From Deferrisoma camini S3R1 (lineage in GTDB: Bacteria > Desulfobacterota > Deferrisomatia > Deferrisomatales > Deferrisomataceae): a stretch of DNA of 64,000 nt. Position numbers and translations under genes: made by a program. The stretch is from contig NZ_JAFN01000001.1 in the NCBI RefSeq assembly GCF_000526155.1, forward strand, positions 3,846,264 through 3,910,263. The letters are read 5' to 3'. The notes under the pieces were generated by a model. It was not told the DNA's origin. It did no database searches and was given only the letters and a program-made list of their open reading frames with translations. How positions within the stretch are numbered: position 1 is the first letter of the stretch; each line of letters begins with the position of its first letter. Shown one piece after another: positions 5,661 through 56,582 of this stretch.

Positions 5661-6275
5661 ATGGGTTGGTGGATCGAGCGAGCCAAGGGCATGAGCCGCG
5701 GGGGCTGGGCCGGTTTCCTAGCCGTGGTGGTCCTGGCCGGGGCGGGGCTGTTCGTCGCCGGGGCCCGGTGGGTCAACACCTCCCCGAACCGGTGTGCCAC
5801 CTGTCACCCGGTGCTGACCGGGCTGTGGAAGCAGAGCCAGGGGCACCCGGCCGACCGGGTCACCTGCTACCAGTGCCACGCCCAGCACGCCGAGCTTCCG
5901 GAGTCCCTGAATGTGTTCGGGTACGTGCGCGATCGCCTGATCCCCGAGAAGTACGCCGCCTTCGAGGACCGGGTCGAGGCCCGGTGCGAGGGCTGCCACT
6001 CCGACATCCGCACCCGGGAGAAGGAGAACCGCAAGCTGATCCGCATCAACCACAAGGTGCACCTGGCCGACGCCGACCCCCAGGGCCGGCCCCTGGACCT
6101 GGGCTGCCTGGACTGCCACCGGTCCATCGCCCACGACAAGGCCGAGGTGCCCACCTGGCGGCCGCGGATGTACGGCTGCTTCACCGGCGACTGCCACCGC
6201 AAGGACCGCAACAAGGACAACTGCCGCCGGTGCCACTACCAGCAGCTGACGGAGCCGGGGGCCCAGGTCCTGTAG
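5661..6275 (+). CDS. Six-haem membrane-anchored cytochrome c (QrcA/NapC-type layout)
   Basis: 204 residues. One N-terminal membrane helix (about 16-37) is followed by a periplasmic haem domain with CATCH, CYQCH, CEGCH, CLDCH and CRRCH. A further site has a four-residue spacer (Cys173-FTGD-Cys178-His179, CX4CH), a variant known from Desulfovibrio cytochromes c3. Six haems on one anchor match QrcA of the menaquinone reductase complex in size and layout; NapC/NirT quinol dehydrogenases are the alternative but usually have four haems. It is preceded by GGGAGAACGAATC before the ATG. It lies 51 bp after the molybdopterin-family gene and is the last gene of this electron-transfer cluster. Confidence 0.88.
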   Translation: MGWWIERAKGMSRGGWAGFLAVVVLAGAGLFVAGARWVNTSPNRCATCHPVLTGLWKQSQGHPADRVTCYQCHAQHAELPESLNVFGYVRDRLIPEKYAAFEDRVEARCEGCHSDIRTREKENRKLIRINHKVHLADADPQGRPLDLGCLDCHRSIAHDKAEVPTWRPRMYGCFTGDCHRKDRNKDNCRRCHYQQLTEPGAQVL

Positions 6276-23700: not shown

Positions 23701-23958
23701 GGTATTGCCATGCCTACCGGTATGGTTGCGGGTCGCAACAAGCAGGAAGTCATGCAGAACATATCCGGGTGGAGCGTGTTTGCGAATGTGTTTCCGCCAG
23801 CATTGCCAGTCTCTGGGCCAGCCTTTGGGCTCGGAGGCAACGTCGGGACCAATCCAGTATATGGAGGTTCACACATGCCTATTTCAAGTGCCGCTACTTC
23901 CCCCGGGTATGGCTTCGAAGTCTCTGCGGGAGGAAGCTACTCTTGGATTTCTGACTAG
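17734..23958 (+). CDS. RHS-repeat polymorphic-toxin-type protein with Gly-rich tip
   Basis: 2074 residues with a strong AAAGGAGGGG site. A signal peptide (about 1-23) leads into a beta-propeller-like region to ~330 with recurring DG-x-x-AW units (YDGNVAWV, YDGTIAYS, HDGMVAWD, DNGRLAWV). An Ig-like and Cys-containing linker extends to ~450, then dozens of YD/RHS repeats (YGYDPATGRL type) that would build the cocoon shell. The RHS core (LYDANGNVGQL...YYSPELGRWMTRDPIGERGGLNLYALVRNN) ends at about residue 1924. The remaining ~150 residues are a variable tip rich in Gly (FNFGGGLGGGIAM, FGLGGNVG) with no recognised toxin motif. RHS proteins deliver such tips to other cells or the surface; an immunity gene normally follows. 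GC content falls sharply at the tip, as expected for a swapped-in cassette. Confidence 0.9.
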   Translation: MGWTRAVWAVLVTWSIYGVASGASGAIQVTHDELRDVEPSVYDGNVAWVCQLPDLCNGSWISGRLPCFEDDVCYLAGGVRQQITGNDAVRVADPGYVPREAHKPALYDGTIAYSRRIDSALDSDYGIYYWDGVTTRLVGTRRSSPPSVILNHDGMVAWDTTAGSYQVWSETGEFTQDVLHALDDLGAGAVRYETGGWTITYRRPGEATSTYAAGVGSGLPPDPGTPVGLDNGRLAWVSGGTLYSWAGGDVEAVGAVSGYVGGIRVDSHTGVVVWRDAQGIHLWDGISVQTTADAVWMPEAYRRGWVAWSEESDTCTPGHYYYWTGDCREIFLENLAAPAPSYALYVDANPITPGQDVRVRIEPPPSGLQLTWSIGPKPGAAGNPGAVLTPGAGGTAVISDVTGAGWLTIRVTSPTDPSFLLEGDVEVGCGACGSGTCAAPGTGWFQISSIEARFGLGKAPGGQKAGDIFLRAPAPDPANATPSVLSVSTLGQVEIVRDAAGVRQVVAPETFVDIVGVDSFTYELRFYRPEDRSEAAGGIYGVAPGAVPFVIWRVENPDRSESTYHRLRITEDRGGVVRVNEYAWDEASSTWTLSQGNGQKVTTQWETESGTDRVERVIVTDASGEVASDVQTTYRRIPCGAETREVVVERVEDPDGLALTTAYSYYGASGPAGSCGLLASEVRPDGSWARYEYDDQGRKTLETRPWMDTPAGTDASLARTIRYGYTPVDPSDTEDPENVRLPRTITEEIAGVVVARTYRVYASGPEGRTEIVERAGLPGAPFGDPANERTETRYHPLGTGEAGQGRIRSALRPDGRLETHSYEFGTYGPPGADGPGTFSPGEGTDLRETIVHGTATSPGGIAYRTTTEVRITDRLGNLLQEETWAHTDAGEERIGWVVYTRDAFGRLLSTRRSDGTAVESTWACCGKASDTDADGTRTEYTQDDLGRVLEATRYAANGTLTTTYGYDAEGRVVSETRTDGILSQATITQYDPAGRVWSVTDPAGLTTTYDYDEGGRITVVTRPGGATEITERYLDGRVKSITGTGTVARYYTYGVNPDGTRWTRVYTGAPDSPRWEETTTDALGRTVRVEKPAFGGGTAVSERFYDAASRLVRTTEPGRADTLYEYDEVGHLVRTGLDVDGSGTLDPASMDRVEERDTFYTYLDSAWWRQAEKRVYPVDGAGTPVTVSAQRTRLTGLGGGLVSETVSVDVHGNETVTRVFVDRATGTRTRITSFPDAANEAVETFVNGLLVSSRSKTGVERTYAYDGLGRRIQETDPRTGATLTTYDAQGRVASVTDPAGSTVTYGYDPATGRLVEETNALGRVVRYAYDDLGNVTHVWGDVPYPVRYVYDAFGQRVEMHTFRNAEADWNTAVFPADAGPADITRWHYDEATGFLVAKEDAAGHRVTYTYSPGGKLATRTWARLDAGNPVVTTYGYDPATGEITSIDYSDDTPDVTLTYDRMGRQETITDAVGTRTFLYDPATLQLQAETITGLYSATLTRTYEDIAGVAGRTRGFALDTGYAVTYGYEPDTGRMSAVSWSVGAENGAVSYTYVPDSDLIEQKAITDGPKTTYTYEPQRDLVTRVEHTSGGAVVARYDYTYNELAQRTSVQLSGRSFAEALNAKLLGKAWFEAAQNTGSGIELLPDHRTYTYDPIGNRLDAEDWDPEAEATRSLIYTTNALNQYEQITAQLGTSVVLGYDADGNLTTWDDGTAAKRYTYDAENRLITVEPAAPASGATKVTFLYDYLGRRIQKVVYQYVSGAWTQTDETLFVYDGWNLIQERYADGQVKRSYVWGLDLSDSLQGAGGIGGLLFSTDGLTSYRYLYDANGNVGQLVDTATGAVIAHYEYDPYGNVAYATGPTDNPFRFSTKYHDDETGLVYYGYRYYSPELGRWMTRDPIGERGGLNLYALVRNNPLRFYDALGHSSKGCPPLKSYPCPSGSYSFTGIQYGGFLLVAGTTTMHLNFKCVGGSHTFNLTIRSFNFGGGLGGGIAMPTGMVAGRNKQEVMQNISGWSVFANVFPPALPVSGPAFGLGGNVGTNPVYGGSHMPISSAATSPGYGFEVSAGGSYSWISD
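23371..23430. repeat. RHS-core 60-bp direct repeat, copy 1
   Basis: 59 of 60 bases match 24566-24625, in the same codon phase (YYGYRYYSPELGRWMTRDPI). Homologous recombination between the two would delete 1195 bp (first tip plus zinc-ribbon gene) and fuse the second tip in frame to the RHS shell. Confidence 0.85.
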
Positions 23959-39368: not shown

Positions 39369-40169
39369 GTGGTGAACGTGTCGCGGAAGTCGGCTTCGCC
39401 CCGTATCGTGGCCGTGGGCACCGGGACCTGCGTGCCCCGCCTGGACCGGCGCGGGCCGTGCACCCTGCTGGAGTGCGAGGGGTTCCGGGCGGCCGTGGAC
39501 CTGGGCCTGGGGGCCCTCCACGGGCTCCTGGCGGCCGGGGTCCGCCACACCCAGCTGGACGCGGTGGTGTTCACCCACCTCCACCCGGACCACACGGCGG
39601 AGCTGGTTTCCCTGCTGTTCGCGGCCCGATACGACGAGGCTCCCCGGGTCCGGCCCCTGGCCCTGGTGGGGGGGCCGGGGCTCCGGGAGTTCCGGGGGGC
39701 CCTGGGCCGGGCCTACGGGGGGTGGATCGAGCCCGAAGGGTACCGACTGGAGTGGAGGGAGGTGGGGCCCCACGCCGCGTTCGAGGTGGGGCCCTGGCGG
39801 GTGCGTACGGCCCCGGCGGCCCACCACCCGTCGAGCCTCGCCCTCCGGTGGGAAACCGAGGGGTTCAGTGCGGTGTTCACCGGCGACACCGGGCCCCACC
39901 CCGCGCTCGCCGGGTTCGCCCGGGGGGTGGACCTCCTCGTTGCCGAGGCCAGCCTGCCGGAAGGCGAGGCCTTCGACCGGCACCTGACGGCCCGCCAGGC
40001 CGGGGACCTGGCTCGGGAGGCCGGAGCCGGGCGCCTGGTGCTCCACCACCTGTACCCTTCGGCCGACCGCGCCGCTCCGGAGCGCCACGCCCGCGAGGCG
40101 TTCGAGGGGCCGGTGGTGGTGGCCCGCGACGGGCTCCGGCTGTGGCCCCCCGGCCCGGACGATTCATGA
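39369..40169 (+). CDS. Metallo-beta-lactamase-fold hydrolase (ribonuclease Z-like)
   Basis: 266 residues. The metal site is complete: THLHPDHTAE, later AAHHPSS, FTGDTGPHPAL and LVLHHLYPSAD. The N-terminal IVAVGTGTCVPRLDRRGP is like the ribonuclease Z/AtsA branch of the fold. It is short for RNase Z and lacks an obvious exosite arm, so a small-molecule hydrolase is equally possible. It begins with GTG-GTG just after the palindromic element, which may therefore have inserted between it and its promoter. It converges with the HD-GYP gene, overlapping by 6 bp. Confidence 0.85.
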   Translation: MVNVSRKSASPRIVAVGTGTCVPRLDRRGPCTLLECEGFRAAVDLGLGALHGLLAAGVRHTQLDAVVFTHLHPDHTAELVSLLFAARYDEAPRVRPLALVGGPGLREFRGALGRAYGGWIEPEGYRLEWREVGPHAAFEVGPWRVRTAPAAHHPSSLALRWETEGFSAVFTGDTGPHPALAGFARGVDLLVAEASLPEGEAFDRHLTARQAGDLAREAGAGRLVLHHLYPSADRAAPERHAREAFEGPVVVARDGLRLWPPGPDDS

Positions 40170-42386
40170 GCCCTCGTCGCGAAGCGCCGCCTCCAGGGCC
40201 TCCACCGCCGCGGCATCGAACTGGGTGCCGGCTCCCCGGTGCAGCTCGGCCAGGGCCTCGTCCCGACCGAGCCCCCGCCGGTAGGGGCGGTCGCTCGTCA
40301 TCGCGTCGTAGGCGTCCGCCACGGCCAGGATCCGGCTCTCCACCCGCAGGTCCTCTCCCCCCATCCCCAATGGGTACCCTTTGCCGTCCGGCCGCTCGTG
40401 GTGCTGGAGCACCACCTGGGCCACGTCCTCGAGCCACGACAGCGGCTCCAGGATCCGGGCCCCGGTGAGGGGGTGCTGCCGGACCAGGTCGATCTCGGCC
40501 GGGTCGAGGCCCGAGGGCTTGTGGAGCACCTCGTGGCGCAAGGCGATCTTGCCGATGTCGTGGAGCATGGCGGCCTGGCGGAGGACCTCCATGGCCTGGG
40601 TTTCGAGGCCCATCTCCTGGGCCGCGGCCAGGGCGAGCCGGGTCACCCTCTGGGAGTGTCCCCGGGTGTAGGGATCCTTGGCCTCGATCGTGTTCACCAG
40701 GGACTGCACGATCTCCAGGGTCGCCCTTTGCTGGGCCAGGTGCAGCCGGGCCGTCTGGTACACGGCGCCCACCTCCCGGCCGAACGGCAGGAGCACGTCC
40801 AGATCCCGCCGGCCGAAGGCCGGCCTTCCTTCGGGGTCGTAGAGGACCAGCAAGGCCTCGGCCCGGTCCTGCTCGGGCAGGGGGACGGGGACGGCGGCCA
40901 GGGTCCGCACCCGGGCCCCGGACACCGGGTCGAGGAGGCCGGTGCCGGGGCCGGGGTCCAGCACCACGCCGCTCGGGGTGGCCCGTTCGGCCAAGGGGAG
41001 CTCCGGAGGAAACCGCACGTCCCGTCCGGCGGGCTCGATCCTGCCGTAGGCGCCCGCCAGGCTCCAGCGGTCCGGATCCGCCTCCGATCGAGCCAGCACG
41101 CACGCCGTTCGGGCGCCCACCGCCTCCGCCGCCAGCCGGACCGCGGCCCGCAGCACCCCGAAGGGGTCCGCGGTCCGGGGAAGGTGGCGCCCCAGCTCCC
41201 GAACCGTGATGAGCCGCTCCACGGCCTCCTCCAGGGCACGGGTCCGTTCCCGCACCCGGACCTCCAGGGCCTGCCGCAGCTCCTGCTGCTCCCGGTTGGC
41301 CCGTTCCAGCCGGCGGGTCATGGCGTTGAACGCCTCGGCCAGCACCCGGATCTCCCGGGCCCCCTGCACGGCCACCTCGCCGGTCATGTCGCCGACGGCC
41401 CGCCGCCGGGTGGCCGTGGCCAGGGCCCGCACGGGGCCGACGATCCACCTCACCGCCCGGTCCAGGGCCAGGAGCCCGGCCAGGGAAAAGAGGGCGGCCA
41501 CGACGCCCATGGTGGCCACCGCCCGGCGGAGGCTGGCGAACGCCAGGGCGAGGTCGTGCTCGGCCACCACGATGCCCAGGGGGGCACCGCCGACGGTGAG
41601 GGCGGCCATCCCGAGGCGCCGGTCGCCCGGCAGCAGGGGATTCCGGGTAGGAACAGCCACGAAGGTGGAGTGGAATCCCTGGGTGCGCACGGCCTCGGGC
41701 CGGCCGTGGCACCGGGCGCAGTCCGGGGCGAACCGCGGGTCGGAGCGCGCCACGGGCTCGCCCCCGGGTCCGAACAGGGCCACCCGGGTGCCCAGGAGCC
41801 GGGCGAGCCGTCCCATCAGCTCGTTGTCGACGCGGCGGCCCACCAGCACCACCCCCGTGATCCTGGCGTCGGACGGCCGCCGCACCGGCGCGATCCCCAC
41901 CAGCAGGGTCCGGCCCCCGGTGCGGAGCACCGAGCCCAGGGTGATGCCGCTCAGCCCCAGCCGCACCAGGGCCTCCACCTCGGGCTCGGCCCGGGGGGGC
42001 GGCTCGAACCCGCTGACCGGGTTCGCCGCGTCGTCCATGCGGGCCCTCTCCCAACCCTGGGGATCCACCAGCTCGATCCAGTCGAGGTCCCACCGCACCT
42101 TCCAGGGAAGTAGGTCCTGAACCACCGGGTGATCGGCCCCTCCCCGGCCCATGTGGCTCCACAGGTCCGAGCGGTCCGCCAGCTCCCGGGCCCGGTCCGC
42201 CAGGCCTTGGGTCTGGGCCTCGAAGAACGCCTCGGCCTGGGCCAGTTGGGTCTGGAGGGCCCGGTCCTCCCCGTCCAGGATGAGCCGGGAGGCGAAGCGG
42301 TAGGCGGCCGCGCCGAGCACGGCGAAGGCGAGGGCCGTCAGAAGGATCGGCACCGCGAGGATCTGGGCGCGCAGGGTCAGGGCCAT
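40164..42386 (-). CDS. Membrane HD-GYP phosphodiesterase with haem-c motif in its periplasmic sensor domain
   Basis: 740 residues. A membrane helix (about 9-31), a periplasmic sensor of ~280 residues and a second helix (~285-305) are followed by HAMP, a coiled coil and a GAF-like domain. The HD-GYP domain shows YTRGHSQRVTRLA, MLHDIGKIAL, HHERPDGKGYP and ILAVADAYDAMTSDRPYR, which hydrolyses c-di-GMP. Within the sensor is CARCH (Cys223/Cys226/His227), a c-type haem attachment site on the periplasmic side, so redox state or a gas ligand may be sensed. The gene starts one base after the stop codon of the PstS-like gene, which makes that protein a likely partner or input. Confidence 0.92.
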   Translation of the reverse strand: MALTLRAQILAVPILLTALAFAVLGAAAYRFASRLILDGEDRALQTQLAQAEAFFEAQTQGLADRARELADRSDLWSHMGRGGADHPVVQDLLPWKVRWDLDWIELVDPQGWERARMDDAANPVSGFEPPPRAEPEVEALVRLGLSGITLGSVLRTGGRTLLVGIAPVRRPSDARITGVVLVGRRVDNELMGRLARLLGTRVALFGPGGEPVARSDPRFAPDCARCHGRPEAVRTQGFHSTFVAVPTRNPLLPGDRRLGMAALTVGGAPLGIVVAEHDLALAFASLRRAVATMGVVAALFSLAGLLALDRAVRWIVGPVRALATATRRRAVGDMTGEVAVQGAREIRVLAEAFNAMTRRLERANREQQELRQALEVRVRERTRALEEAVERLITVRELGRHLPRTADPFGVLRAAVRLAAEAVGARTACVLARSEADPDRWSLAGAYGRIEPAGRDVRFPPELPLAERATPSGVVLDPGPGTGLLDPVSGARVRTLAAVPVPLPEQDRAEALLVLYDPEGRPAFGRRDLDVLLPFGREVGAVYQTARLHLAQQRATLEIVQSLVNTIEAKDPYTRGHSQRVTRLALAAAQEMGLETQAMEVLRQAAMLHDIGKIALRHEVLHKPSGLDPAEIDLVRQHPLTGARILEPLSWLEDVAQVVLQHHERPDGKGYPLGMGGEDLRVESRILAVADAYDAMTSDRPYRRGLGRDEALAELHRGAGTQFDAAAVEALEAALRDEGS

Positions 42387-42387
42387 G

Positions 42388-43242
42388 TCAGGGGTTGGCC
42401 GGAACGGCGCCCAGGGCGTCGAGCACCGACGCCGCCCGGGGGCCCGTGAGGAAGGCGAGAAACCGCACCACCTCGGGCCGGGGTGACGGCCGGCTGACAA
42501 CGCCCAGGGGAACGACGAGCCGGAACGCCCCCGACCGGGCCTCGTCGGGCCGGGGCCACCGCCCCGCGGGAGGGATCGCCCGCACGTCCAGGCCCAGGCT
42601 GCGCAACTCGGCCCGGCCGGCGTACCCGATGGTGTAGGGGGTGGTGGCCAGGGCCCGGGTCATGTCGGCCGGCCGGGCCAGCACCACGGCCGCCTCGGTC
42701 ATCCGGAACCCGGGCCCGAAGAACTCCTCCATGAGGGTTCGGCGCACGCTTTGGCCGGGTTTCCGGTCCAGGGGAAGGATGTCGTGGTCCACCCCGTCCA
42801 CCTGGGCCCAGTTGCGGATCGCACCCCGGTAGATCCCGCGCACCGCTTCGGCGTCGAGCCTGGGAGCCCCGCCCGAGGGGTGGGCGGCGAACGCGATGGG
42901 GTCGTAGCCCAGCAGGTGGTAGGCCAGGCCCGCGGCCTCGTCGCGGCGCAGCGGCCGCGAACAGGTGCCCAGGTCGAGGGCCTCGGAGCGCACGCCAGCC
43001 ACCCCTCCGGCCGTGCTGGTGCCTGGCAGGATCCGCACCCGCGCCCGGGGGTTCTCGTCGGTGTAGGCCTGGATCAGGCGTTCCAGGAGCGGGAACAGGG
43101 TCTCCGAGCCCGACACCCGGATCTCGGGCTCGGGGGGCAGGTCGGCCGGGCCGGCCGGGGTCTCGTCGGCCCGGGTGCAGGCGAAAAACGCCGCGGCCCC
43201 GGGCAGGAGGACCGCGACGGCGAGAAACAGGAGTCTGCGCAC
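42388..43242 (-). CDS. PstS-like periplasmic substrate-binding protein
   Basis: 284 residues from GTG. The N-terminal hydrophobic leader ends near FFAC, possibly a lipoprotein site. A phosphate-binding-protein fold follows: IRVSGSETLFPLLERLIQAY, ILPGTSTAGGVAGVRSEALDLG, SRPLRRDEA, GIYRGAIRNWAQV and TPYTIGYAG. Such stand-alone proteins bind phosphate or another small anion. With no ABC transporter genes nearby and the HD-GYP sensor one base downstream, it more likely presents a ligand to that sensor. An upstream in-frame extension exists but has no other start near a ribosome site. Confidence 0.85.
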   Translation of the reverse strand: MRRLLFLAVAVLLPGAAAFFACTRADETPAGPADLPPEPEIRVSGSETLFPLLERLIQAYTDENPRARVRILPGTSTAGGVAGVRSEALDLGTCSRPLRRDEAAGLAYHLLGYDPIAFAAHPSGGAPRLDAEAVRGIYRGAIRNWAQVDGVDHDILPLDRKPGQSVRRTLMEEFFGPGFRMTEAAVVLARPADMTRALATTPYTIGYAGRAELRSLGLDVRAIPPAGRWPRPDEARSGAFRLVVPLGVVSRPSPRPEVVRFLAFLTGPRAASVLDALGAVPANP

Positions 43243-43325
43243 GGGGTGGACGGTCCTTTCCAGTCCCCCCCTGGGAAACGGAGATCGGGAAGCGTGCGCT
43301 ACCCTAGCACGGGGCCTGGCGGGCT

Positions 43326-44927
43326 TCAATCCAGGGGGACGAACGGGGCGTGGTTGGCGGTGAGCCCGGCGGGAGTGCACCGGAGGATCGTGCCCACCAC
43401 GGGGTCGGTCCGGGCCTCGGCCAGGAACCTCCGCACGTCGCGCCGGGGCCACCCGGGATCGTCGAACGGCCGGTACAGGGACAGGTCCTCCTCCGGCGGG
43501 TGGCTCCCCAGGACTCCCCGGCCGGACAGCTCGGCCTCCCACCGGCTGCCCGCGGGCAGGTGGAACAGGGCCAGGTTCAGAAACGTGATCGCGTCGGCGT
43601 GGCGCCGCACCCAGTCCAGGGTGGTCTCAGCCTCGGCCCGGCCCTGGCCGGGGAGGCCGAACAGGAGGTACACGTGGGTTCGGATGCCGGCGGCCCGCAG
43701 GTTGCGGAGGATCGGGCCCAGGTGCTCGGCTCGGGTTCCCTTGCCGGCCCGGTCGAGCACGGCCTGGCACGCCGACTCGACCCCCAGCCGGAGGAGCCGG
43801 CATCCTCCGGCGGCCAGACCCCGGGCGAGCCGGGGGTCCAGGAGGGAGGGCTCGGGCCGGACGAACCCGTACCAGGGGCGGCGCTCGCCAGGGGCCGGCT
43901 CGGCCAGCGCCGCCAGGAGCCGGGGCGGAACGGCCTCGTCCGTCAGATGCACCCACGGGTGCCGGGGGCTGTCCAAGGCGGCCACCGCCCGGGCGGGGGC
44001 GGCCGCGCGAAACGGCGGCCCGGCCTGGGCCGCCTCGGGGCAGAAGGCGCATCGTCTCCAGTAGCACCCTCGGCTGAGCGTCAGGGGCGCCACGGGGCCC
44101 GGCGCCAGGTACCCGGGCTCCGGCCGGGCTGGGGGCGGGTGGGGGGCCCAGTCGGTCGGCACCGGGCCCGGGGGCCGCCACACCCCCCGGGCCGGTGCCA
44201 TGATCCCGGGCGCGTCCCACTCCCCCCGGGCCAGGACTTCGGCCGCGACCTCCCCCGGGCCGGCCACCAGCGCGTCCCAGCACCGGAACACCGGCGAGCC
44301 CGGCCCGAGCCGGCGTCTCCACGCCCCGACCAGGGCCCCGCCGAGGACCAGGCGCCCCCGAAACCCCTCCCGGCGCAGCCATCCCGCCAGGCCGAAGGCG
44401 GGCAGGGCCTGGCTGAGGAACGTCACGGACACCCCGATCCAGGCCGGATCCCGTTCCAGGAGCCGCCGGGCCAGGGGGAGGAGCAGGCCCCCGATGGGGA
44501 GCGCGCCGGGGTCCCGGGCCGCCCGGGCCAGCTGGCCGGAGGCCAGGGGCGACCATCCGGGCAGCTCCAGGTCGGCCGGGCTCAGGCGCGCGCCCAGGGC
44601 CTCGCCGACGGTCCGGTAGGCGAGGAGCAGGTCCGCCAGGGCCTGCCGGTAGGCCACGGCGTCCCGGTACCCGTCCGGGCCTGCCAAGGCGGCCGCGGCC
44701 CGGGGCGACCGGGTCCGTGCCCGGCGTGCCCGGGTGGCCCCCGGCCCCCTCCCCGTGCCCGCTCCGGCCGGGACCGACCACAGGTGCCGGTGGAACGCGA
44801 GGTTCAGGTCCAGCATCTCCGCCTCGAAGCCCCGTGCGCGCAGGTGGGCCGCCACGGCCAGGGCGCCGGGGGTGGGCTCGGTGGGCTTGGCCACCGGGGG
44901 GATCACGATCAGCCCGGGCCCAGTCAC
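43326..44927 (-). CDS. Radical SAM protein with B12-binding-like N-terminus
   Basis: 533 residues from GTG, which overlaps the stop of the glutamate synthase gene (GTGA). The N-terminal half (VIPPVAKPTEPTPGALAVAAHL, WIGVSVTFLSQALPAFGLAGWL, RLVLGGALVGAW) is laid out like the cobalamin-binding region of class B radical SAM proteins. The radical SAM domain has the cluster cysteines in SRGCYWRRCAFC, then VHLTDEAVPPRLL, LLRLGVESACQAVLDRAGKG and HVYLLFGLPGQGRAEAE. The substrate is unknown. Coupling to gltB is unusual and may hint at a nitrogen-linked product. Arg/Ala-rich insertions near residues 55-80 are probably lineage-specific. Confidence 0.88.
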   Translation of the reverse strand: MTGPGLIVIPPVAKPTEPTPGALAVAAHLRARGFEAEMLDLNLAFHRHLWSVPAGAGTGRGPGATRARRARTRSPRAAAALAGPDGYRDAVAYRQALADLLLAYRTVGEALGARLSPADLELPGWSPLASGQLARAARDPGALPIGGLLLPLARRLLERDPAWIGVSVTFLSQALPAFGLAGWLRREGFRGRLVLGGALVGAWRRRLGPGSPVFRCWDALVAGPGEVAAEVLARGEWDAPGIMAPARGVWRPPGPVPTDWAPHPPPARPEPGYLAPGPVAPLTLSRGCYWRRCAFCPEAAQAGPPFRAAAPARAVAALDSPRHPWVHLTDEAVPPRLLAALAEPAPGERRPWYGFVRPEPSLLDPRLARGLAAGGCRLLRLGVESACQAVLDRAGKGTRAEHLGPILRNLRAAGIRTHVYLLFGLPGQGRAEAETTLDWVRRHADAITFLNLALFHLPAGSRWEAELSGRGVLGSHPPEEDLSLYRPFDDPGWPRRDVRRFLAEARTDPVVGTILRCTPAGLTANHAPFVPLD

Positions 44928-47900
44928 GGCCGCCGGCCCGCCTCGGCCGGGGGGCGCAGGGCCACGAAGTGCCGGGCCGGATCCCGGAGCAACCCCTCCA
45001 CCCACCGGGCCTCGGCCTCGCCCCCCGTGTACGGGCTGCTCCTGAGTTCGGCCGCGTAGGCGCCGAGCAGTTCCCGCAGGTCGGCCTCTCCCCGCCCGTC
45101 GAGGTCGCGGATCTCCACCGGCGACCCCAGGGCCAGGCGTCGCCGCACCGCCTCCCGGTCGAGCCCCAGGCCGGGGTCGAGGCGCACGTACACCACCCCG
45201 CCGGTCATGCCCGAGCACAGCCAGGGGCCCGGATCTCCGAGCACCACGGCCCGGCCGGCGGTCATGTACTCGAACGCGAACCCTTTGAGGTTGGCCCGAT
45301 CCGCCAGGAACCCCAGGGCATCGACCCTGGGTTCGCGCATCCGACCTCCGATCACCACGTCCGCGCCCGACAGCCGGACCCCGCACCGGCTGTCGGCGTC
45401 GCCCTGCACCAGGAACAGGCCGGCCTGGGCCCCGTAGGCGAACCCCTTGCCCACGCACCCCCCCACCGGCTGACCGTCGTGGTTCTCCCCCTTGAGCACC
45501 ACCACCCGGCCGCCCCGGGCGCACTTGGCCACCCCGTCCTGGCTGCCCCCTTCCACCCGGATCTCCACCTCGTCCACGTTGAACGCGCCCATGCCGTTGC
45601 CCGGCACCGAGCCCGGGCCCAGATGGAGCCGGGCCTGCCACGGGCACCGGCTGGCCGGGCCCGGCCGGCGCCGCACGGCCTCTCCGGACAGGTGGGTGCC
45701 CAGGGCCCGGTCCGAGGAGAGCACCCGGTCGTCCTCGTACACCACCGCCCCGGCGCCCCGGTCCACGGCCGAGGTGACCTCCTGGGTCACCACCCGGGTC
45801 AGGTACGACAGGGGCCTCCGCACCGTGATCGTGCCCTTCGGTTCGGTCGCCCGGGGCCCGGGGGGCACCAGCAGGGCCGACAGGTCCACCCGGTCGGTGC
45901 CCCGGGCCTGCACCAGGAGGTCCCTCCGGCCCACCAGGTCCCGGACCCGGCCGAGCCCCAGGCGGGCCGTGAGGCGCCGAACCTCCTCGCCCGTCTCGCG
46001 AAGGAGCCGGACGAGGTTCTCCACCCCCTGTTCCGGGTCCCGCGGCTCGAACCCCCGGATGCCCCGCCGGGCCGCGGCCTCCTGGGTCTCCACCTGGGTG
46101 GCGATGCCCCGGGGGCACACGTCCCGGTGGCACCGGCGGCATGCGACGCATCCGATGCCCAGGAGGGCCAGGGTGCCGAACCCCGCCCGGTCGGCCCCCA
46201 GGCACAGGCATTTCACCACGTCCGCGGCCGTGCGCAGGCCCCCGTCGGCCCACAGCTCGACCCGCTCGCGCAGCCCGGACTCCACCAGGGCGTCGTGCAC
46301 CTCGGTGATGCCCACCTCCACGGGAAGCCCCACCCTGCGCAGGGCGTGGAGCCGGGCCGCGCCGGTGCCCCCGTCGAACCCCGACAGGGTCAGGATGTCG
46401 GCCCCGGCCTTGACGACGCCCAGACCGATGGTCGCGATGCCCGAGACCACCGGCACCTTCACCGAGATCCGGGCCCGGGGGTTCACGGTGCGCAGCTCCT
46501 CGATCAGCTGGGCGAGGTCCTCGATGGAGTACACGTCGTGGTGGTTCGAGGGGCTGATCAGCGAGATCCCGGGCACGGCGCTCCGGGCCCGGGCCACCTT
46601 CTCGGTGACCTTGGCGCCCGGAAGGTGGCCCCCCTCCCCGGGTTTGGCGCCCTGGCCGATCTTGATCTCGATCAGGTCCACGCTGTTGAGCATCTCGGCG
46701 TGGACCCCGAACCGTCCGGAGGCCACCTGCTGGCTGCGCACCGCCCGGTACCGGCCGAGCAGGTCCGGCAGCTCGCCGCCCTCCCCGTTCATGCAGGGGA
46801 TGCCGAGGCGGCGGGCCGCCTCGGCGTAGATGCGAAATGCGGTCTCCCCCTGGCTGCCGAAGCTCATGGGACAGATGAAGATGGGGTAGCGGTGGCCGCC
46901 CACCGACGGGTCCACCCGGTCGGGGTCCACCGGCCGGCTCCGGTCGGGGACCCGCAGGTCCAACAGATGACGAAGGGCCACGGGCCGCTTCGCCTCCGAA
47001 GCGGCCGCCCGTTCGGCCAGCTCGCGGTAAGGGGCGTCTCCCTCGGCCACGGCCCTCACCCACCGGGCGAGCCGGGGGGTGGACCGGAACGGCCGGCCCT
47101 TGGCGGGGGCCTTGCGGAGCCGTGCCCACCGCCGGTCGAGCTCCTCCAGGGTGAGGCCGGCCGAGCCGCCGAACCGGTTCCTCACCCCCAGCCTGCGGGC
47201 CAGGTCGTCGCCGAGGCCCAGGGCCGAGAACACCCGGCCGTAGCCGGAGATCTCGTGGATCCCCATGGTGGAGATCACCGTGCGCATGCCGGCGGTGAGC
47301 GCCGCGAGCAGGCGGTCGAGCCCCTCGGCCCCCCGGGCGTCCCAGGCGGCCCGGAACAGGAGCCAGGGAGCCAGGGCGTCGGCCCCCAGCCCCAGGCAGC
47401 ACATGCAGTCGTGGAGATTGCGCAGGGCGTCCGAAGCCACCACCAGGCTGATGCGCCGCCGCGGGCATCCTCCGGCCCGGCCCGACCGGGTACGCAGGGC
47501 CCGATCCACCTCGGCCACCGCCAACAGGGGGTCTAGGCCCGGGCCGCCCTCGGGGTCGGCCAGGACCAGCAGGTGGCCCCCCCCTTCCGCGGCGCGCTGG
47601 GCCTCGCCCGCCAGGGTCTCGAGGTCGTCGGCCAGGGGCCGGGCCGGGTTCCGGGCGAGGGGGAGGATCCGGACCCGTTCCGGGCCCAGGTGGGCCACCA
47701 CGTCGGCCAGGAGCGCGGTCTCGTGCTTCCGGGCCGCCCGGCGGGCCGCCTCCTCGGGCACCCCGGCGAGCAGCAGGGGGATCTCCACGGACACCCAGGG
47801 TGGATAGGGCGGTTCGGCCCCGGGCTCCAACCGCGCCCCCAGCCGCACCCGGGTGGAGAAGTGCTCCCCCTCCCGTTTGGGGTCGATGGCGGGGTTGGTG

Positions 47901-49381
47901 ACCACGGCCACGTCCTCCTGGAGGAAGTCGGCCAGCAGCACCGCGTCCGGGTCCAGCGCGGCCAGGGGGCCGTCCCACCCCATGCTGCCCACCGGATCGG
48001 ACCCGTCTCGCACCATGGGGTCGAGCAGCTCCTCGTCGTGGGAGGTCCAGCCGGCCTGGGCCTTCCTTTTGTCCAGGGAGCCCGAGGGGGGGCCGGGCTC
48101 TCCGGTGCCGCCGGCCAGCGTCCGTTCCCCCCTCACCAGGCCCAGGCCGGCCCAGCAGGCGTCCAGATCGATCCGGCGGGCGAACCGGGCCAGGACCTCC
48201 TTCTGGAACCGGCTGTGGGGCACGACCGAGGCGCGGCCGTCGGTGAACCGGACGGCCACCTTCTCGCCGGGGGCCATGGGCTTGGGGTCGGTCTCCAGAT
48301 CCTCCACCGGCACCACCCCGGGTTCCGACGTGGCCACGATCTCCCGGGTGGTCTCGCACACCCACAGGGGCCGGAGCCCCAGGGCGTCCACACTGAACAC
48401 GAACTCGTCGCCGTGGCGCAGGATGAGGGCCGCCGGACCCTGGGCCGAGGCGTCGAAGGTGCGGCGCATGGCCGCGTACAGGCTTCGGAGCACCTCGGGG
48501 GAGTGGAGGATCTCGTGGTGCACGGGGGGGAACAGGAGCTCCACCGCCTCGGCCAGGGTGAGCCCCCAGCGGTGGATCAAGAACCGCAGGATCCGGTCCA
48601 GGTCCTGGGAGTCAGACCCCCCCGCGGGGATCTGGGCTCCCAGGGCCCGGGCCTCCCGGCGCAGGCGTTCGATCGTGTTGATCTCGCCGTTGTGGGCCAG
48701 GCATGGGAACGGCTGGGCACGCAGGACGGTGGGCAGGGTGTTCGTGGAGTACCGGGAGTGCCCCACCGCCGAGACCGTGCGCAGAAGGGGGCTGCGCAGG
48801 TCCGGGTAGTACCGCCGCAGGAGGGCCGGGCTGCCGTGGACCTTGTAGACGCATCGGTCCCCGGCCATGCTCGCCACGTGCACCCCCAGATCCTCGGTCC
48901 GGCGGGCCAGGCCGTCCAGGAACGCGTCGCGCTCGGCCGGGTCGGCGTGGAGGGGATCGACCCCCGCCACCTGCCAGAACTCGGGCTCGTCCTCCCGGGC
49001 GCGGGGGCCCAGGACCTCGGTGGACACCGGATGGTGGGCCTCGGTCAGGATCTCCAGGCCGGCCCCGGCCCAGAGGTTGCGAACCGCGCTCTTCACCTCG
49101 GCCGAGGAGGGGCGGAGGGGGCGGGGGATCAGCACGTGGGCCACGAAGAACCCGCCGGCGCGCACGGCCTCCTCGCGCTTGCCGGCTCGCACCAGCCTCC
49201 GGGCCCACAGCTCCCGGGGCAGGTCCACCAGCACCCCGGCGCCGTCTCCCTCGCCCTCGATCTCGCCGCCCCGGTGCCCCAGGGCCACCAGCGCCTCCAG
49301 GGTGCGCTTCAGGGTGCCGTGGGTCGGGGTGCCGTCCTTTCGGATGCGGGCCACGATGCCGCAGGAATCCGCATGCTCCAT
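44924..49381 (-). CDS. gltB: Glutamate synthase, large subunit
   Basis: 1485 residues with the full domain order: class II glutaminase with the catalytic Cys7 exposed after a six-residue leader (MEHADS-C-GIVARI), central domain, FMN synthase domain and C-terminal GXGXG beta-helix. FMN-domain segments are IFICPMSFGSQGE, LIEIKIGQGAKPGEGGHLPG, NHHDVYSIEDLAQLI and GFDGGTGAA. The 3Fe-4S cysteines lie in CVACRRCHRDVCPRGIATQ. The beta-helix carries GVAKCARGGRVVVLKGENHDG and GAFNVDEVEIRV. It makes two glutamates from glutamine and 2-oxoglutarate. No small subunit is next to it. The ATG at 49381 has GAGG eight bases upstream; an upstream ATG at 49432 is less likely. PII is encoded 0.7 kb away, divergently. 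Confidence 0.94.
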   Translation of the reverse strand: MEHADSCGIVARIRKDGTPTHGTLKRTLEALVALGHRGGEIEGEGDGAGVLVDLPRELWARRLVRAGKREEAVRAGGFFVAHVLIPRPLRPSSAEVKSAVRNLWAGAGLEILTEAHHPVSTEVLGPRAREDEPEFWQVAGVDPLHADPAERDAFLDGLARRTEDLGVHVASMAGDRCVYKVHGSPALLRRYYPDLRSPLLRTVSAVGHSRYSTNTLPTVLRAQPFPCLAHNGEINTIERLRREARALGAQIPAGGSDSQDLDRILRFLIHRWGLTLAEAVELLFPPVHHEILHSPEVLRSLYAAMRRTFDASAQGPAALILRHGDEFVFSVDALGLRPLWVCETTREIVATSEPGVVPVEDLETDPKPMAPGEKVAVRFTDGRASVVPHSRFQKEVLARFARRIDLDACWAGLGLVRGERTLAGGTGEPGPPSGSLDKRKAQAGWTSHDEELLDPMVRDGSDPVGSMGWDGPLAALDPDAVLLADFLQEDVAVVTNPAIDPKREGEHFSTRVRLGARLEPGAEPPYPPWVSVEIPLLLAGVPEEAARRAARKHETALLADVVAHLGPERVRILPLARNPARPLADDLETLAGEAQRAAEGGGHLLVLADPEGGPGLDPLLAVAEVDRALRTRSGRAGGCPRRRISLVVASDALRNLHDCMCCLGLGADALAPWLLFRAAWDARGAEGLDRLLAALTAGMRTVISTMGIHEISGYGRVFSALGLGDDLARRLGVRNRFGGSAGLTLEELDRRWARLRKAPAKGRPFRSTPRLARWVRAVAEGDAPYRELAERAAASEAKRPVALRHLLDLRVPDRSRPVDPDRVDPSVGGHRYPIFICPMSFGSQGETAFRIYAEAARRLGIPCMNGEGGELPDLLGRYRAVRSQQVASGRFGVHAEMLNSVDLIEIKIGQGAKPGEGGHLPGAKVTEKVARARSAVPGISLISPSNHHDVYSIEDLAQLIEELRTVNPRARISVKVPVVSGIATIGLGVVKAGADILTLSGFDGGTGAARLHALRRVGLPVEVGITEVHDALVESGLRERVELWADGGLRTAADVVKCLCLGADRAGFGTLALLGIGCVACRRCHRDVCPRGIATQVETQEAAARRGIRGFEPRDPEQGVENLVRLLRETGEEVRRLTARLGLGRVRDLVGRRDLLVQARGTDRVDLSALLVPPGPRATEPKGTITVRRPLSYLTRVVTQEVTSAVDRGAGAVVYEDDRVLSSDRALGTHLSGEAVRRRPGPASRCPWQARLHLGPGSVPGNGMGAFNVDEVEIRVEGGSQDGVAKCARGGRVVVLKGENHDGQPVGGCVGKGFAYGAQAGLFLVQGDADSRCGVRLSGADVVIGGRMREPRVDALGFLADRANLKGFAFEYMTAGRAVVLGDPGPWLCSGMTGGVVYVRLDPGLGLDREAVRRRLALGSPVEIRDLDGRGEADLRELLGAYAAELRSSPYTGGEAEARWVEGLLRDPARHFVALRPPAEAGRRP

Positions 49382-49473
49382 TGAATCGACCTCGGAGGGG
49401 GGACGGGGACTTTGTTCTTTTTGTGAAAACATCCCGAGTCTAGCCCCGGAACGGGGCCCGTGAAAAGGGGGGT

Positions 49474-49501
49474 TTGCCCCGGCCGGCGGTTGGGCTAGGA
49501 T
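49474..49501 (+). promoter_or_regulatory. Possible promoter of the CMD-coiled-coil-PII operon
   Basis: TTGCCC (49474-49479), 16-base spacer, TAGGAT (49496-49501), 42 bp before the start codon. Moderate matches only. No clear sigma-54 (GG-N10-GC) element or NtrC site was seen in this divergent region. Confidence 0.35.
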
Positions 49502-49543
49502 GGAGTCTGTGTGTGTCGCCCCGTTCCGATCCGGAGCCTTTCC

Positions 49544-50378
<835 letters not shown>

Positions 50379-50436
50379 TCCCGGGCGTGGGGCGCCGGCC
50401 CGGCCGGCCGCCGGGTCCGCAGCAAGGGGAGCTCCC

Positions 50437-52519: not shown

Positions 52520-54556
52520 ATGGCATCCCAGAACGTTCCGAACTCCGGCCGGGACCCCACGGTCCTGGTCGTCGACGACGAGCCGAGCATCGTAACGATC
52601 TGCCGGGGGTTCCTGGAGCCCGCGGGCTATCGGGTGGTCGGCGCGGGAAGCGCGGCCGAGGCCCGCCGGCTGCTCGAGGCCGAGCCCGTGGACGTGGTCG
52701 TGTGCGACCACGCCATGCCCGAGACCACGGGCGTGGACCTGCTGGCCGAGGTCCGGGACCGTTGGCCCGGGGTGGTGCGGATCCTCTACACCGGCGTGGT
52801 GGATCCCCGGATCGCGGAGGAGGCCACCACCCGGGCCGAGGTGTTCCGGTTCCTGGTCAAACCGTTCCCCGCCCCGGTTCTGCGCAACGCGGTGGACCAG
52901 GCCCTGGCCTACCGGCGGCTGGTCCAGGAGAACGAGGCGTTCCGGAACGAGCTGGAACGGATGGTGCAGGACCAGTCCCGTGAGCTCGCGCGCACCAGCG
53001 CGTTCCTGGAGAGCCTGCTCGACGCCCTGCCGGCCGGGGTGCTGGCCGTGGACGCCGAGGGGACCGTCACCCGGGCCAACCGCACGGCGGCGACGATCCT
53101 AGGGATGGAGCAGGACCGACTGGTGGGCGCCCGCGCCGAGGAGGTGGGGGTGCCCTGTCGGGGCAGCGGCTGCGCGATCGCCGAGGGAGGGGGGGCCCGG
53201 TGCCGGAACCGGGAGCTCGAGGTGCGCGACCGGTGGGGGCTCCGGCGTCAGCTCCTGTGGTCATGCGAGGAGGTCCGGATCGACGATGGAGGGTCCGGGT
53301 GCGTGGCCTCGTTCATCGACGTCACCGAGAAGAAGGACCTGGAGATCCGGGTGTTCCAGGCCAAGCAGGAGATCGAGGCGGTGTTCGACTCGATCACCGA
53401 TCCCACGGCCGTGGTGGGGCGTGGCGGCCGGATCTCCCGCGCCAACCGGGCCTTCTCCCACATGGTCAAGCGGCCGTTCGAGGACCTGCTGGGCCACGTC
53501 CTGGCCGAGGTGGGCGCGCCCGGGGCCCCGGACCGGGTGGGGGCCCTGGTGGAGGAGGTGTTCGCAACGGGCGAGCCGGCCCAGGCCGAGTACCACGACC
53601 GGGCGGGCGCCATCTTCCAGATCCGGCTGTTTCCCATTTTCAAGCGGGGCCGGGTGGAGCAGGTGGTGATCCGGTACCAGGACATCACGGCCGAGCGGGA
53701 GCTGGAACACCGGCTGGCCCAGAGCGAAAAGATGGCGAGCGTGGGCCAGCTGGCCGCGGGCATCGCCCACGAGATCAACAACCCGGTGGGCTTCATCCTC
53801 TCCAACCTGAACCGGCTGGCCGAGTACGCCTCCGATCTGGACCGGTTCGGCCGCTGCTCCTCCGAGCTGGCCGCTTCGGCCCTGGACGGCCGGATGGATC
53901 CCCGGGAGGCGTGGGAGGCCTACCTGCGGGCCCGGCAGGAGGCCGACCTGGACTTCCTGTTGGAGGATGTGACCGAGATCGTGACCGACTGCCGGGAGGG
54001 GGCGGAGCGGATTCGCAAGATCGTGACCGACCTCAAGACGTTCAGCCATCCTGGTGGGGACGACTGGGAGTACGCCGACCTCAACCGGTGCCTGGAGAGC
54101 ACCCTCAACATCGCCTGGAACGAGCTCAAGTACGACTGCGACGTGGAGCGGGAGTTCGGGGACCTGCCCCAGGTGCTGTGCCGGCCCCAGCAGCTCAATC
54201 AGGTGTTCCTGAACCTCCTGGTGAACGCGGCCCACGCCGTGAAGGAGAAGGGGCAGGGCCGCGGCAGGGTCCGGGTGGCGACCCGGCAGGAGGGCGACCG
54301 GGTCGTGGTGGAGGTCTCGGACACCGGGGTGGGCATCCCCCCCGAGCACCTGAGGAAGATCTTCGACCCGTTCTTCACCACCAAGCCGGTGGGCAAGGGC
54401 ACCGGCCTTGGGCTGCACCTGGCCGCGGGCATCGTCCGCGCCCACGGCGGGGAGATCCAGGTGGAGAGCACCCCGGGCGAGGGCAGCACGTTCCGGGTGG
54501 TGCTGCCCCTGATGCCGCCCGGGGCCGAGGAGCGAGGGGGACGCGATGACGTGTGA
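52520..54556 (+). CDS. Receiver-PAS-PAS histidine kinase
   Basis: About 678 residues. An N-terminal receiver (VLVVDDEPSIVTICRGFL, VVVCDHAMPETTG) is followed by two PAS domains (LLDALPAGVLAVDAEGTVTRAN with a Cys-containing CRGSGCAI loop; VFDSITDPTAVVGRGGRISRAN). HisKA (LAAGIAHEINNPVGFILSNL) and HATPase (NLLVNAAHAVKEKG, DTGVGIPPE, GKGTGLGLHLAAGIV) complete it. Soluble. The ATG at 52520 follows GGAGGGGCAC; ATG 52490 in the same frame also has an upstream AAGGGGA. It overlaps the next gene by 11 bp. The DHAMP-type receivers of this and the next two genes point to one co-operating set. Confidence 0.92.
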   Translation: MASQNVPNSGRDPTVLVVDDEPSIVTICRGFLEPAGYRVVGAGSAAEARRLLEAEPVDVVVCDHAMPETTGVDLLAEVRDRWPGVVRILYTGVVDPRIAEEATTRAEVFRFLVKPFPAPVLRNAVDQALAYRRLVQENEAFRNELERMVQDQSRELARTSAFLESLLDALPAGVLAVDAEGTVTRANRTAATILGMEQDRLVGARAEEVGVPCRGSGCAIAEGGGARCRNRELEVRDRWGLRRQLLWSCEEVRIDDGGSGCVASFIDVTEKKDLEIRVFQAKQEIEAVFDSITDPTAVVGRGGRISRANRAFSHMVKRPFEDLLGHVLAEVGAPGAPDRVGALVEEVFATGEPAQAEYHDRAGAIFQIRLFPIFKRGRVEQVVIRYQDITAERELEHRLAQSEKMASVGQLAAGIAHEINNPVGFILSNLNRLAEYASDLDRFGRCSSELAASALDGRMDPREAWEAYLRARQEADLDFLLEDVTEIVTDCREGAERIRKIVTDLKTFSHPGGDDWEYADLNRCLESTLNIAWNELKYDCDVEREFGDLPQVLCRPQQLNQVFLNLLVNAAHAVKEKGQGRGRVRVATRQEGDRVVVEVSDTGVGIPPEHLRKIFDPFFTTKPVGKGTGLGLHLAAGIVRAHGGEIQVESTPGEGSTFRVVLPLMPPGAEERGGRDDV

Positions 54557-55271
54557 GGCCGACCGACCCCGTATCCTGTTCGTGGACGACGAGGAGAACG
54601 TGCTCCGGGCGTTGCGCCGCCTGTTCCGCAGGGAGCCGTGGACCTTGGGGTTCGCCCGCTCGGGGGCCGAGGCCCTGGAGGTGTTCGAGCGTGACGGCCC
54701 CTACGACGTGGTGGTCTCCGACCAGCGGATGCCGGGGATGACGGGGGTGGAGCTCCTCCGGCGGCTGCGAGCCGTGCGGCCCCAGTGCGTACGGATCGTG
54801 CTCTCCGGCCACACGGACGTGAACGCCGTGATCGAGGCGGTCAACGAGGGGGCGATCTACAAGTTCCTGACCAAGCCCTGGGACGACGAGGTGCTGCGGA
54901 CCTCCGTGGCCGAGGCGGCCGAAGGGGTGGCTCTGCGGCGCCAGAACGAGGTGCTCCGGGCGCGGGTCGAGGCCCAGAACGCCGAGCTCGCGGCCATCAA
55001 CCGGTGCCTGGAGCTGACGATCCGCGAGGGGCTCGAGGCCCGCAGCGCCGGGCTGGCCTGCGCCCTCTTGGAGATGGCGCCGGCGGCCCTTGTGGCGGTG
55101 GGGGCCGACGGCACCGTTGCCCTGGCCAACCGCGCGGCGCGGGAGCGCTTGGGCGATGGGGCCCGGCTGGGAGCCCCGTGGCGGGCCCCCGACGGGGTCC
55201 GGGTGGCGGCGTCCGCCGAGGTGGAGGCCCCGGGGTGGCAGGGAACGGTGTTCCTCATCGGGGAGGCGTGA
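54546..55271 (+). CDS. Response regulator with C-terminal PAS-like domain
   Basis: 241 residues: a receiver at 8-130 (ILFVDDEENVLRALRRLF, VVVSDQRMPGMTGVELL, IYKFLTKPWDDE), a coiled coil, and a short PAS-like end (ALLEMAPAALVAVGADGTVALANRAA). There is no enzymatic or DNA-binding output. The receiver is very like that of the next gene (SDQRMPGMTG, KPWDD), indicating tandem duplication. It overlaps the kinase upstream and ends 3 bp before the HD-GYP regulator, so the three proteins probably act in one pathway. Confidence 0.9.
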   Translation: MTCEADRPRILFVDDEENVLRALRRLFRREPWTLGFARSGAEALEVFERDGPYDVVVSDQRMPGMTGVELLRRLRAVRPQCVRIVLSGHTDVNAVIEAVNEGAIYKFLTKPWDDEVLRTSVAEAAEGVALRRQNEVLRARVEAQNAELAAINRCLELTIREGLEARSAGLACALLEMAPAALVAVGADGTVALANRAARERLGDGARLGAPWRAPDGVRVAASAEVEAPGWQGTVFLIGEA

Positions 55272-55274
55272 TCC

Positions 55275-56582
55275 ATGGCCCAGCACACCCTGTTGTTCGT
55301 GGACGACGAGGAGAACATCCTCAAGGCCCTCACCCGGCTCTTCCACCGGACCGACCACGAGGTCCTCACGGCCCGAAGCGGCCGGGAGGCGCTGGAGATC
55401 CTGGCGGATCGGCCCGTGTCCCTGATCCTGTCCGACCAGCGGATGCCCGGCATGACCGGCACCGAGCTCCTGGCCCGGGCCCGGGAGATCCGGCCCGAGG
55501 CGGTGCGGATCATCCTGACCGGGTACGCCGACGTGGCCGCGGCCATGGAGGCGATCAACGACGGCCGGGTGTACCGGTTCCTACCCAAGCCCTGGGACGA
55601 CCAGGCCCTGCTGGACGTGGTGGCCGAAGCCCTGGCCGAGCTGGACCTGAAGCGCGAGCACGCGGCCCTCCAGGAGCAGGTGCGCCGCCAGAACGAGGAG
55701 CTTCGGGAGCTCAACGCCACCTTGGAGCGGCGGGTGCGCGAGCGCACCAACGAGCTCCAGATGGCCCTGAAGATGTCGGAGGAGCTCAACGAGAGCCTGC
55801 GCAAACAGAACCTCGCCACCATCAAGGCGTTCGCGAGCCTCCTGGACCTGCGCAACCAGACCCTGGGGGCCCACTGCCGGCGGGTGGCCGGGCTGGTGCC
55901 CAAGGTGTGCGCCAGGCTCGGGGTGAGGGACAAGGAAACCGTGCAGGACGCCATCGTGGCCGCGCTGCTCCACGACATCGGAAAGATCGGTCTGCCCGAC
56001 GCGGTGCTCCTGAAGGAGCCGGCCCATCTGGGCTCGGCCGAGCGGGAGGAGGTGCGCAAGCACCCGGTCATCGGCGAGGGACAGATCCAGGTGATCGACG
56101 GGCTGGCGGGGGTGGCCCGGGCGGTGCGTCACCACCACGAGAACGTGGACGGCTCGGGGTTTCCGGACGGCCTGGCGGGCGACGAGATCCCGGTGGCCGC
56201 CCGCGTGATCCGGGTGGTCGACGCCTACGACCGTTTGACCCGCGGGGGGGTGCGCAAGGGCGCCGAGGAGCGGTTGGTGCTGGAGGCCATGGACCGCCAG
56301 GTGGGCCGGCATTTCGACGGGGCCGTGTTCAACGCCCTGCTCGACGTGCTCGAGGAACGCCGCGACGCCTACGACTCCACCCGGGAGCGCAAGGTGTCCC
56401 TGGACGAGCTGCGGGAAGGGATGGTTCTGTCCCGGGACCTGCGCACCCAGAGCGGAATCCTCCTGGTGCCCAAGGACGAGCCGATCCGGTCGTCGTACCT
56501 CGAGAAGATCCGCAACTTCCGTGAGCTCTATCCCACGGACCCCTACGCGTACGTGTACCGTACCCCCCCGGGCGGGGCCTGA
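55275..56582 (+). CDS. HD-GYP response regulator (RpfG-type c-di-GMP phosphodiesterase)
   Basis: 435 residues. A receiver at 5-125 (LLFVDDEENILKALTRLF, LILSDQRMPGMTGTELL, YRFLPKPWDDQ) and a coiled coil precede an HD-GYP domain: LLDLRNQTLGAHCRRVA, ALLHDIGKIGLPDAVLL, HHHENVDGSGFPDGL, VIRVVDAYDRLTRGG. The GYP motif reads GFP here, a tolerated change. It would hydrolyse c-di-GMP on phosphorylation by the upstream kinases. A C-terminal extension of about 70 residues (LDELREGMVLSRDLRTQSGILLVPKDEPI) matches the tail common in this class. Confidence 0.93.
   Translation: MAQHTLLFVDDEENILKALTRLFHRTDHEVLTARSGREALEILADRPVSLILSDQRMPGMTGTELLARAREIRPEAVRIILTGYADVAAAMEAINDGRVYRFLPKPWDDQALLDVVAEALAELDLKREHAALQEQVRRQNEELRELNATLERRVRERTNELQMALKMSEELNESLRKQNLATIKAFASLLDLRNQTLGAHCRRVAGLVPKVCARLGVRDKETVQDAIVAALLHDIGKIGLPDAVLLKEPAHLGSAEREEVRKHPVIGEGQIQVIDGLAGVARAVRHHHENVDGSGFPDGLAGDEIPVAARVIRVVDAYDRLTRGGVRKGAEERLVLEAMDRQVGRHFDGAVFNALLDVLEERRDAYDSTRERKVSLDELREGMVLSRDLRTQSGILLVPKDEPIRSSYLEKIRNFRELYPTDPYAYVYRTPPGGA

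Follow-up and report, generated by a model that had tools for sequence, protein, structure and literature searches.

The window analysed here, a 64,000-nucleotide stretch of the Deferrisoma camini S3R1 genome, contains two adjacent minus-strand genes, one for a PstS-like periplasmic binding protein, probably a lipoprotein, and one for a membrane receptor with an HD-GYP output domain (Table 1). The receptor gene is an open frame of 740 aa with 0 internal stops. The stop codon of the PstS-like gene lies one base upstream of the receptor ATG (TGA-C-ATG), just as an earlier note on this DNA had claimed, and no permease gene lies alongside, so that the same note was also right in describing a binding protein that has no transporter. 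Each of the three species in the genus retains the one-base junction between the binding protein and the receptor. Elsewhere in the window there is a gene for a very large RHS-repeat protein (17734-23958(+), 2074 aa).

Table 1. Features of the receptor and binding-protein genes (positions are those of the window)
Feature	Position	Strand	Basis
Receptor: TM1 - double Cache (CHASE4/LuxQ-like) - TM2 - HAMP - linker - HD-GYP phosphodiesterase	40164..42386	-	translation, Pfam, hydropathy
Transmembrane helix 1 (TM1), residues ~7-29	42300..42368	-	hydropathy
Periplasmic sensor, residues 31-286, predicted double Cache; sub-cut-off CHASE4 at 57-202	41529..42296	-	Pfam, model
CARCH codons (residues 223-227), putative attachment site for haem c	41706..41720	-	sequence
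Transmembrane helix 2 (TM2), residues ~289-308	41463..41522	-	hydropathy
HAMP domain, residues 312-361	41304..41453	-	Pfam, E 1e-11
Linker, probable GAF-like domain, residues ~400-545	40752..41189	-	partly inferred
HD-GYP domain (HD_5, PF13487), residues 563-726	40209..40700	-	Pfam, E 4e-39
PstS-like periplasmic binding protein (PBP_like_2), GTG start after AAAGGA	42388..43251	-	PF12849, E 1.5e-20

The identification of the receptor as an HD-GYP protein, also made earlier, is confirmed by the Pfam HD_5 match and by the catalytic motifs HSQRV, HDIGK, HHERPDGKGYP, and DAYDA, all of which are present (motif positions 577, 609, 662, and 691). The receptor probably switches off c-di-GMP through its breakdown by the HD-GYP domain. 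The linker in front of this domain gives no Pfam match, while a partial match to the HD-GYP structure 4mcw suggests a probable GAF-like domain. There are 11 HD_5 matches in the D. camini S3R1 genome. Two neighbouring response-regulator genes are found at 54546-56582(+), the second of which combines a receiver with HD-GYP, so the window bears two HD-GYP genes.

The sole CXXCH of the receptor, CARCH, is flanked by the two membrane helices, and its Cys223 and Cys226 are the only cysteines in the periplasmic part of the protein. Since HAMP and HD_5 both come after TM2, the motif is periplasmic, in accordance with the earlier proposal, and the cytoplasmic location that would have spoken against that proposal is excluded by the same topology. 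At the amino-acid composition of the window, 0.002 chance CXXCH motifs are expected per 740 aa and 0.0008 in the periplasmic part. The motif occurs in other genes of the window as well: a five-CXXCH cytochrome (5661-6275(+)) is encoded after ferredoxin-like, membrane-anchor-like, and molybdopterin-type genes, and the glutamate synthase gene (44924-50425(-)) bears CRRCH inside an Fe-S-type cysteine cluster, CVACRRCHRDVCP, which means that CXXCH by itself does not indicate haem.

Receptor orthologues were found in the same genus only, and CARCH is kept in 3/3 of its species (the host and two orthologues with 91% and 98% identity). The longest identical run shared with the 91%-identical orthologue (72 aa, residues 193-264) contains CARCH, a modest result in a shuffle test (p = 0.04), and residues 201-260 differ between these two proteins by 0 non-synonymous and 7 synonymous changes. 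Given how closely the three species are related (91-98% identity) and the modest p value, conservation here is a weak test of constraint. Across about 400 genomes of the phylum, CXXCH is absent in every sensor relative found, and of 30 true CHASE4 proteins taken from the phylum, none carries it. Weak matches to sensor lobe 2 (395 genomes) were attributed to chance, those inspected being leucyl-tRNA synthetase zinc fingers, a multihaem cytochrome, and unrelated frames; another HD-GYP protein with CXXCH (L003) has a shorter and different sensor. Thus, the conservation in orthologues that had been proposed as a check holds inside the genus and is missing beyond it. On the sequences compared, the CXXCH segment is a genus-restricted addition in sensor lobe 2, so far unique to the genus.

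The CHASE4 profile (PF05228) gives 22.7 bits on the sensor, below its cut-off of 26.2. An AlphaFold2 model of the sensor obtained from a seven-sequence alignment (A1; mean pLDDT 67, pTM 0.62) starts with a long helix followed by two Cache lobes, i.e., a double Cache, at moderate confidence; CARCH is placed in lobe 2, in the coil that links strands 2 and 3, with low pLDDT for both this lobe and the motif loop. With a 17-sequence alignment (A2), lobe 1 is similar to that of the A1 model and lobe 2 is poorer. In the structural comparison (Foldseek/VIA-align), the top match is LuxQ in its complex with LuxP (Z 14.1), practically tied with the CHASE4 domain of IsmP (8wct, Z 13.6); most other double Cache sensors score Z 10-13, and the matches include KinD, DctB, and PctA. 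A phmmer search of the PDB with the sensor retrieved nothing relevant, and the A2 profile found only DcuS there, weakly.

The nearest sensor relatives by profile (A1, E to 1e-114) are the periplasmic domains of histidine kinases from the same genome, family, and order, and CXXCH is absent from all these paralogous sensors. Each of the kinases is preceded by a PstS-like binding-protein gene in an ATGA-type overlap with the kinase start codon. The pair of binding protein and receptor is thus an older module, since the paralogous kinases share both the sensor and the PstS-like partner but not CXXCH; and because no paralogous sensor outside the genus has the motif, the receptor family has no need of it. 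Among the closest PstS-like homologues in the order, most likewise adjoin receptors, not permeases, namely histidine kinases (L121-L125) and chemoreceptors (L126-L129). At three loci (L122:3592-7472, L123:3642-8074, and L124:2761-6914), a single polypeptide fusing PstS-like and PhnD-like parts overlaps the start of a kinase with a paralogous sensor; the PhnD-like part of the L124 fusion matches Phosphonate-bd at E 2e-61. These loci may represent an undescribed family of co-receptors with two binding domains in the order.

The binding protein of the window departs from the transporter type. With TIGR02136 it scores 73 bits, below the PstS family cut-off of 207, and it has DRKPGQSVRR where the genome's transporter PstS has RQSNSGT, so that the SGT loop is missing; this separate PstS (L130) lies beside multi-helix genes and a gene resembling an ABC ATPase. 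The anion sensing suggested earlier is weakened by the missing phosphate loop, and, with DRKPGQSVRR in its place, neither phosphate nor any particular anion can be assumed as the ligand.

As regards the haem, the genome possesses cytochrome c assembly genes (PF01578, 5 matches). A full CXXCH in the haem-attachment compartment of a c-type cytochrome maker is normally enough for haem loading by the Ccm/Ccs systems. Given the assembly genes and the position of the motif on the right side of the membrane, haem c on the CXXCH is probable, and CARCH would probably carry it covalently, with His227 as the proximal ligand. A haem input to c-di-GMP through the CHASE4 fold class is plausible, since the CHASE4 domain of a Pseudomonas aeruginosa diguanylate cyclase binds haem b and slows and tunes the enzyme (PMC13277305). 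Single Cache domains with CXXCH, the Tll0287/DUF3365 proteins newly named sCache_heme, serve as NO or redox sensors (PMC12889525), and by analogy the haem input of the receptor might be the redox state or NO.

It is nevertheless conceivable, albeit unlikely, that the receptor is coupled to its binding protein but reads a metal or the thiol redox state, Cys223 and Cys226 forming either a disulfide or, together with His227, an iron, copper, or zinc site. This would agree with the two cysteines being the sole periplasmic ones, with the ability of all paralogous sensors to work without CXXCH, with the Fe-S-type CXXCH in the glutamate synthase of the window, and with the binding of ferric iron via CHASE4 by the close structural match IsmP (PMC10904736). 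It is opposed by the full CXXCH spacing and by the haem-attachment compartment of a c-type cytochrome maker, normally a sufficient combination for haem.

Still less credit can be given to an ordinary HD-GYP receptor merely co-transcribed with a binding protein that acts elsewhere. HD-GYP proteins are indeed common, as the number of HD_5 matches in this genome illustrates, but overlapping or one-base junctions recur in several genomes with both histidine kinase and HD-GYP outputs, chemoreceptors adjoin related binding proteins, and the sensor fold is nearest to LuxQ, all of which makes this explanation improbable.

That the sensor is a diverged member of the c-haem Cache family (Tll0287/DUF3365/sCache_heme) is very hard to sustain: one CXXCH in a Cache lobe is common to both, and a 29-residue profile match surrounds the motif when CXXCH carriers alone are used (hhalign 45%), but the whole-sensor profile match is 0.3%, the local match is gone once the five CARCH residues are masked, PF11845 does not match the receptor at E<0.1 while finding the true member of the genome elsewhere, the stretches N..N.PD.WE and GD.RGGIS common to the members compared are lacking, and the model puts the motif loop, at low pLDDT, between strands 2 and 3 of a second lobe, as against 3 and 4 in the family (PMC12889525). 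Because masking abolishes the 29-residue match, the likeness to the Tll0287 family is that of the motif itself, and membership was rejected on the PF11845, whole-sensor, and masking results. The haem-Cache structures 3B42, 3B47, and 5B82 are absent among the matches listed in the structural comparison. PF11845 matches one other gene in the genome and, across 30 related genomes, gives another 28 matches; the protein in question (L001, G000:C1:3386583-3387047), the one true sCache_heme protein of the genome, has CLKCH, a pair of helices, and LLPICSSCKKIR in a short tail on the cytoplasmic side.

The gene structure, the topology, the motif, the intact catalytic motifs, a gene pairing that recurs where the sensors are paralogous, and a fold class modelled with moderate confidence form the observed basis for the explanation that we favour and consider somewhat more probable than all others together, namely a co-receptor similar to LuxPQ and NspS-MbaA that lowers c-di-GMP and has gained a haem c as a redox or NO sensor. 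In such a receptor, the PstS-like protein would report its ligand by docking on the double Cache of a dimeric membrane receptor, and the signal would run through TM2 and HAMP to HD-GYP and c-di-GMP breakdown. The CXXCH in the membrane-proximal lobe would be loaded with one haem c by the cytochrome c assembly system, giving the receptor a redox or NO/gas input beside the ligand input of the binding protein. The more specific proposal, that a LuxQ/CHASE4-like double Cache gained haem c independently and that ligand and haem redox/NO inputs jointly control c-di-GMP breakdown, is tentative, with a chance slightly short of even. The earlier idea of a haem-c sensor paired with a binding protein is supported in part, by the periplasmic CXXCH, the assembly genes, the intact HD-GYP, the linked binding protein, and the LuxQ-like fold, while its anion part has lost ground.

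If the favoured explanation is true, one receptor would tie two inputs to c-di-GMP breakdown. It has been argued that a Cache sensor was turned into a haem sensor by inserting a short cytochrome fragment (PMC12889525); the receptor described here would have gained its haem separately and recently, as a second such Cache sensor, and the sister receptors without CXXCH in the same genome would provide a natural before-and-after pair. In the literature searched, no case was found of a LuxQ/CHASE4-like double Cache that bears a covalent haem motif, has an HD-GYP output, and comes with a dedicated binding protein: each of the parts is known, and their combination is new.

The individual parts can be traced in several described systems. 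IsmP/PA2072 and PA14_53310 also place a CHASE4-class sensor over c-di-GMP, with iron or haem b as the input (PMC10904736, PMC13277305), but their ligands are non-covalent and their output is not HD-GYP; a paired binding protein is not reported in the available portion of these sources. The sCache_heme proteins, such as Tll0287, GSU0582, and GSU0935, share a Cache-type periplasmic sensor with one CXXCH (PMC12889525), whereas that family has a single Cache, with the motif between strands 3 and 4, and its own sequence signature. In phosphate chemotaxis, Pi-loaded PstS binds the chemoreceptor CtpL and stimulates it (PMC4926252), so a PstS-type protein docks there on a transmembrane receptor too; however, the output is chemoreception, PstS also serves the transporter, and phosphate binding is intact. 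NspS-MbaA offers a binding protein that governs a membrane c-di-GMP enzyme (PMC8967002), though with a GGDEF-EAL output, a polyamine ligand, and no haem. Finally, in the Vibrio AI-2 receptor LuxP-LuxQ, which lacks haem, LuxP is of the ribose type, another class than PstS, and the output of LuxQ is a histidine kinase, but the general design is the same: a separate binding protein and a two-helix double Cache receptor.
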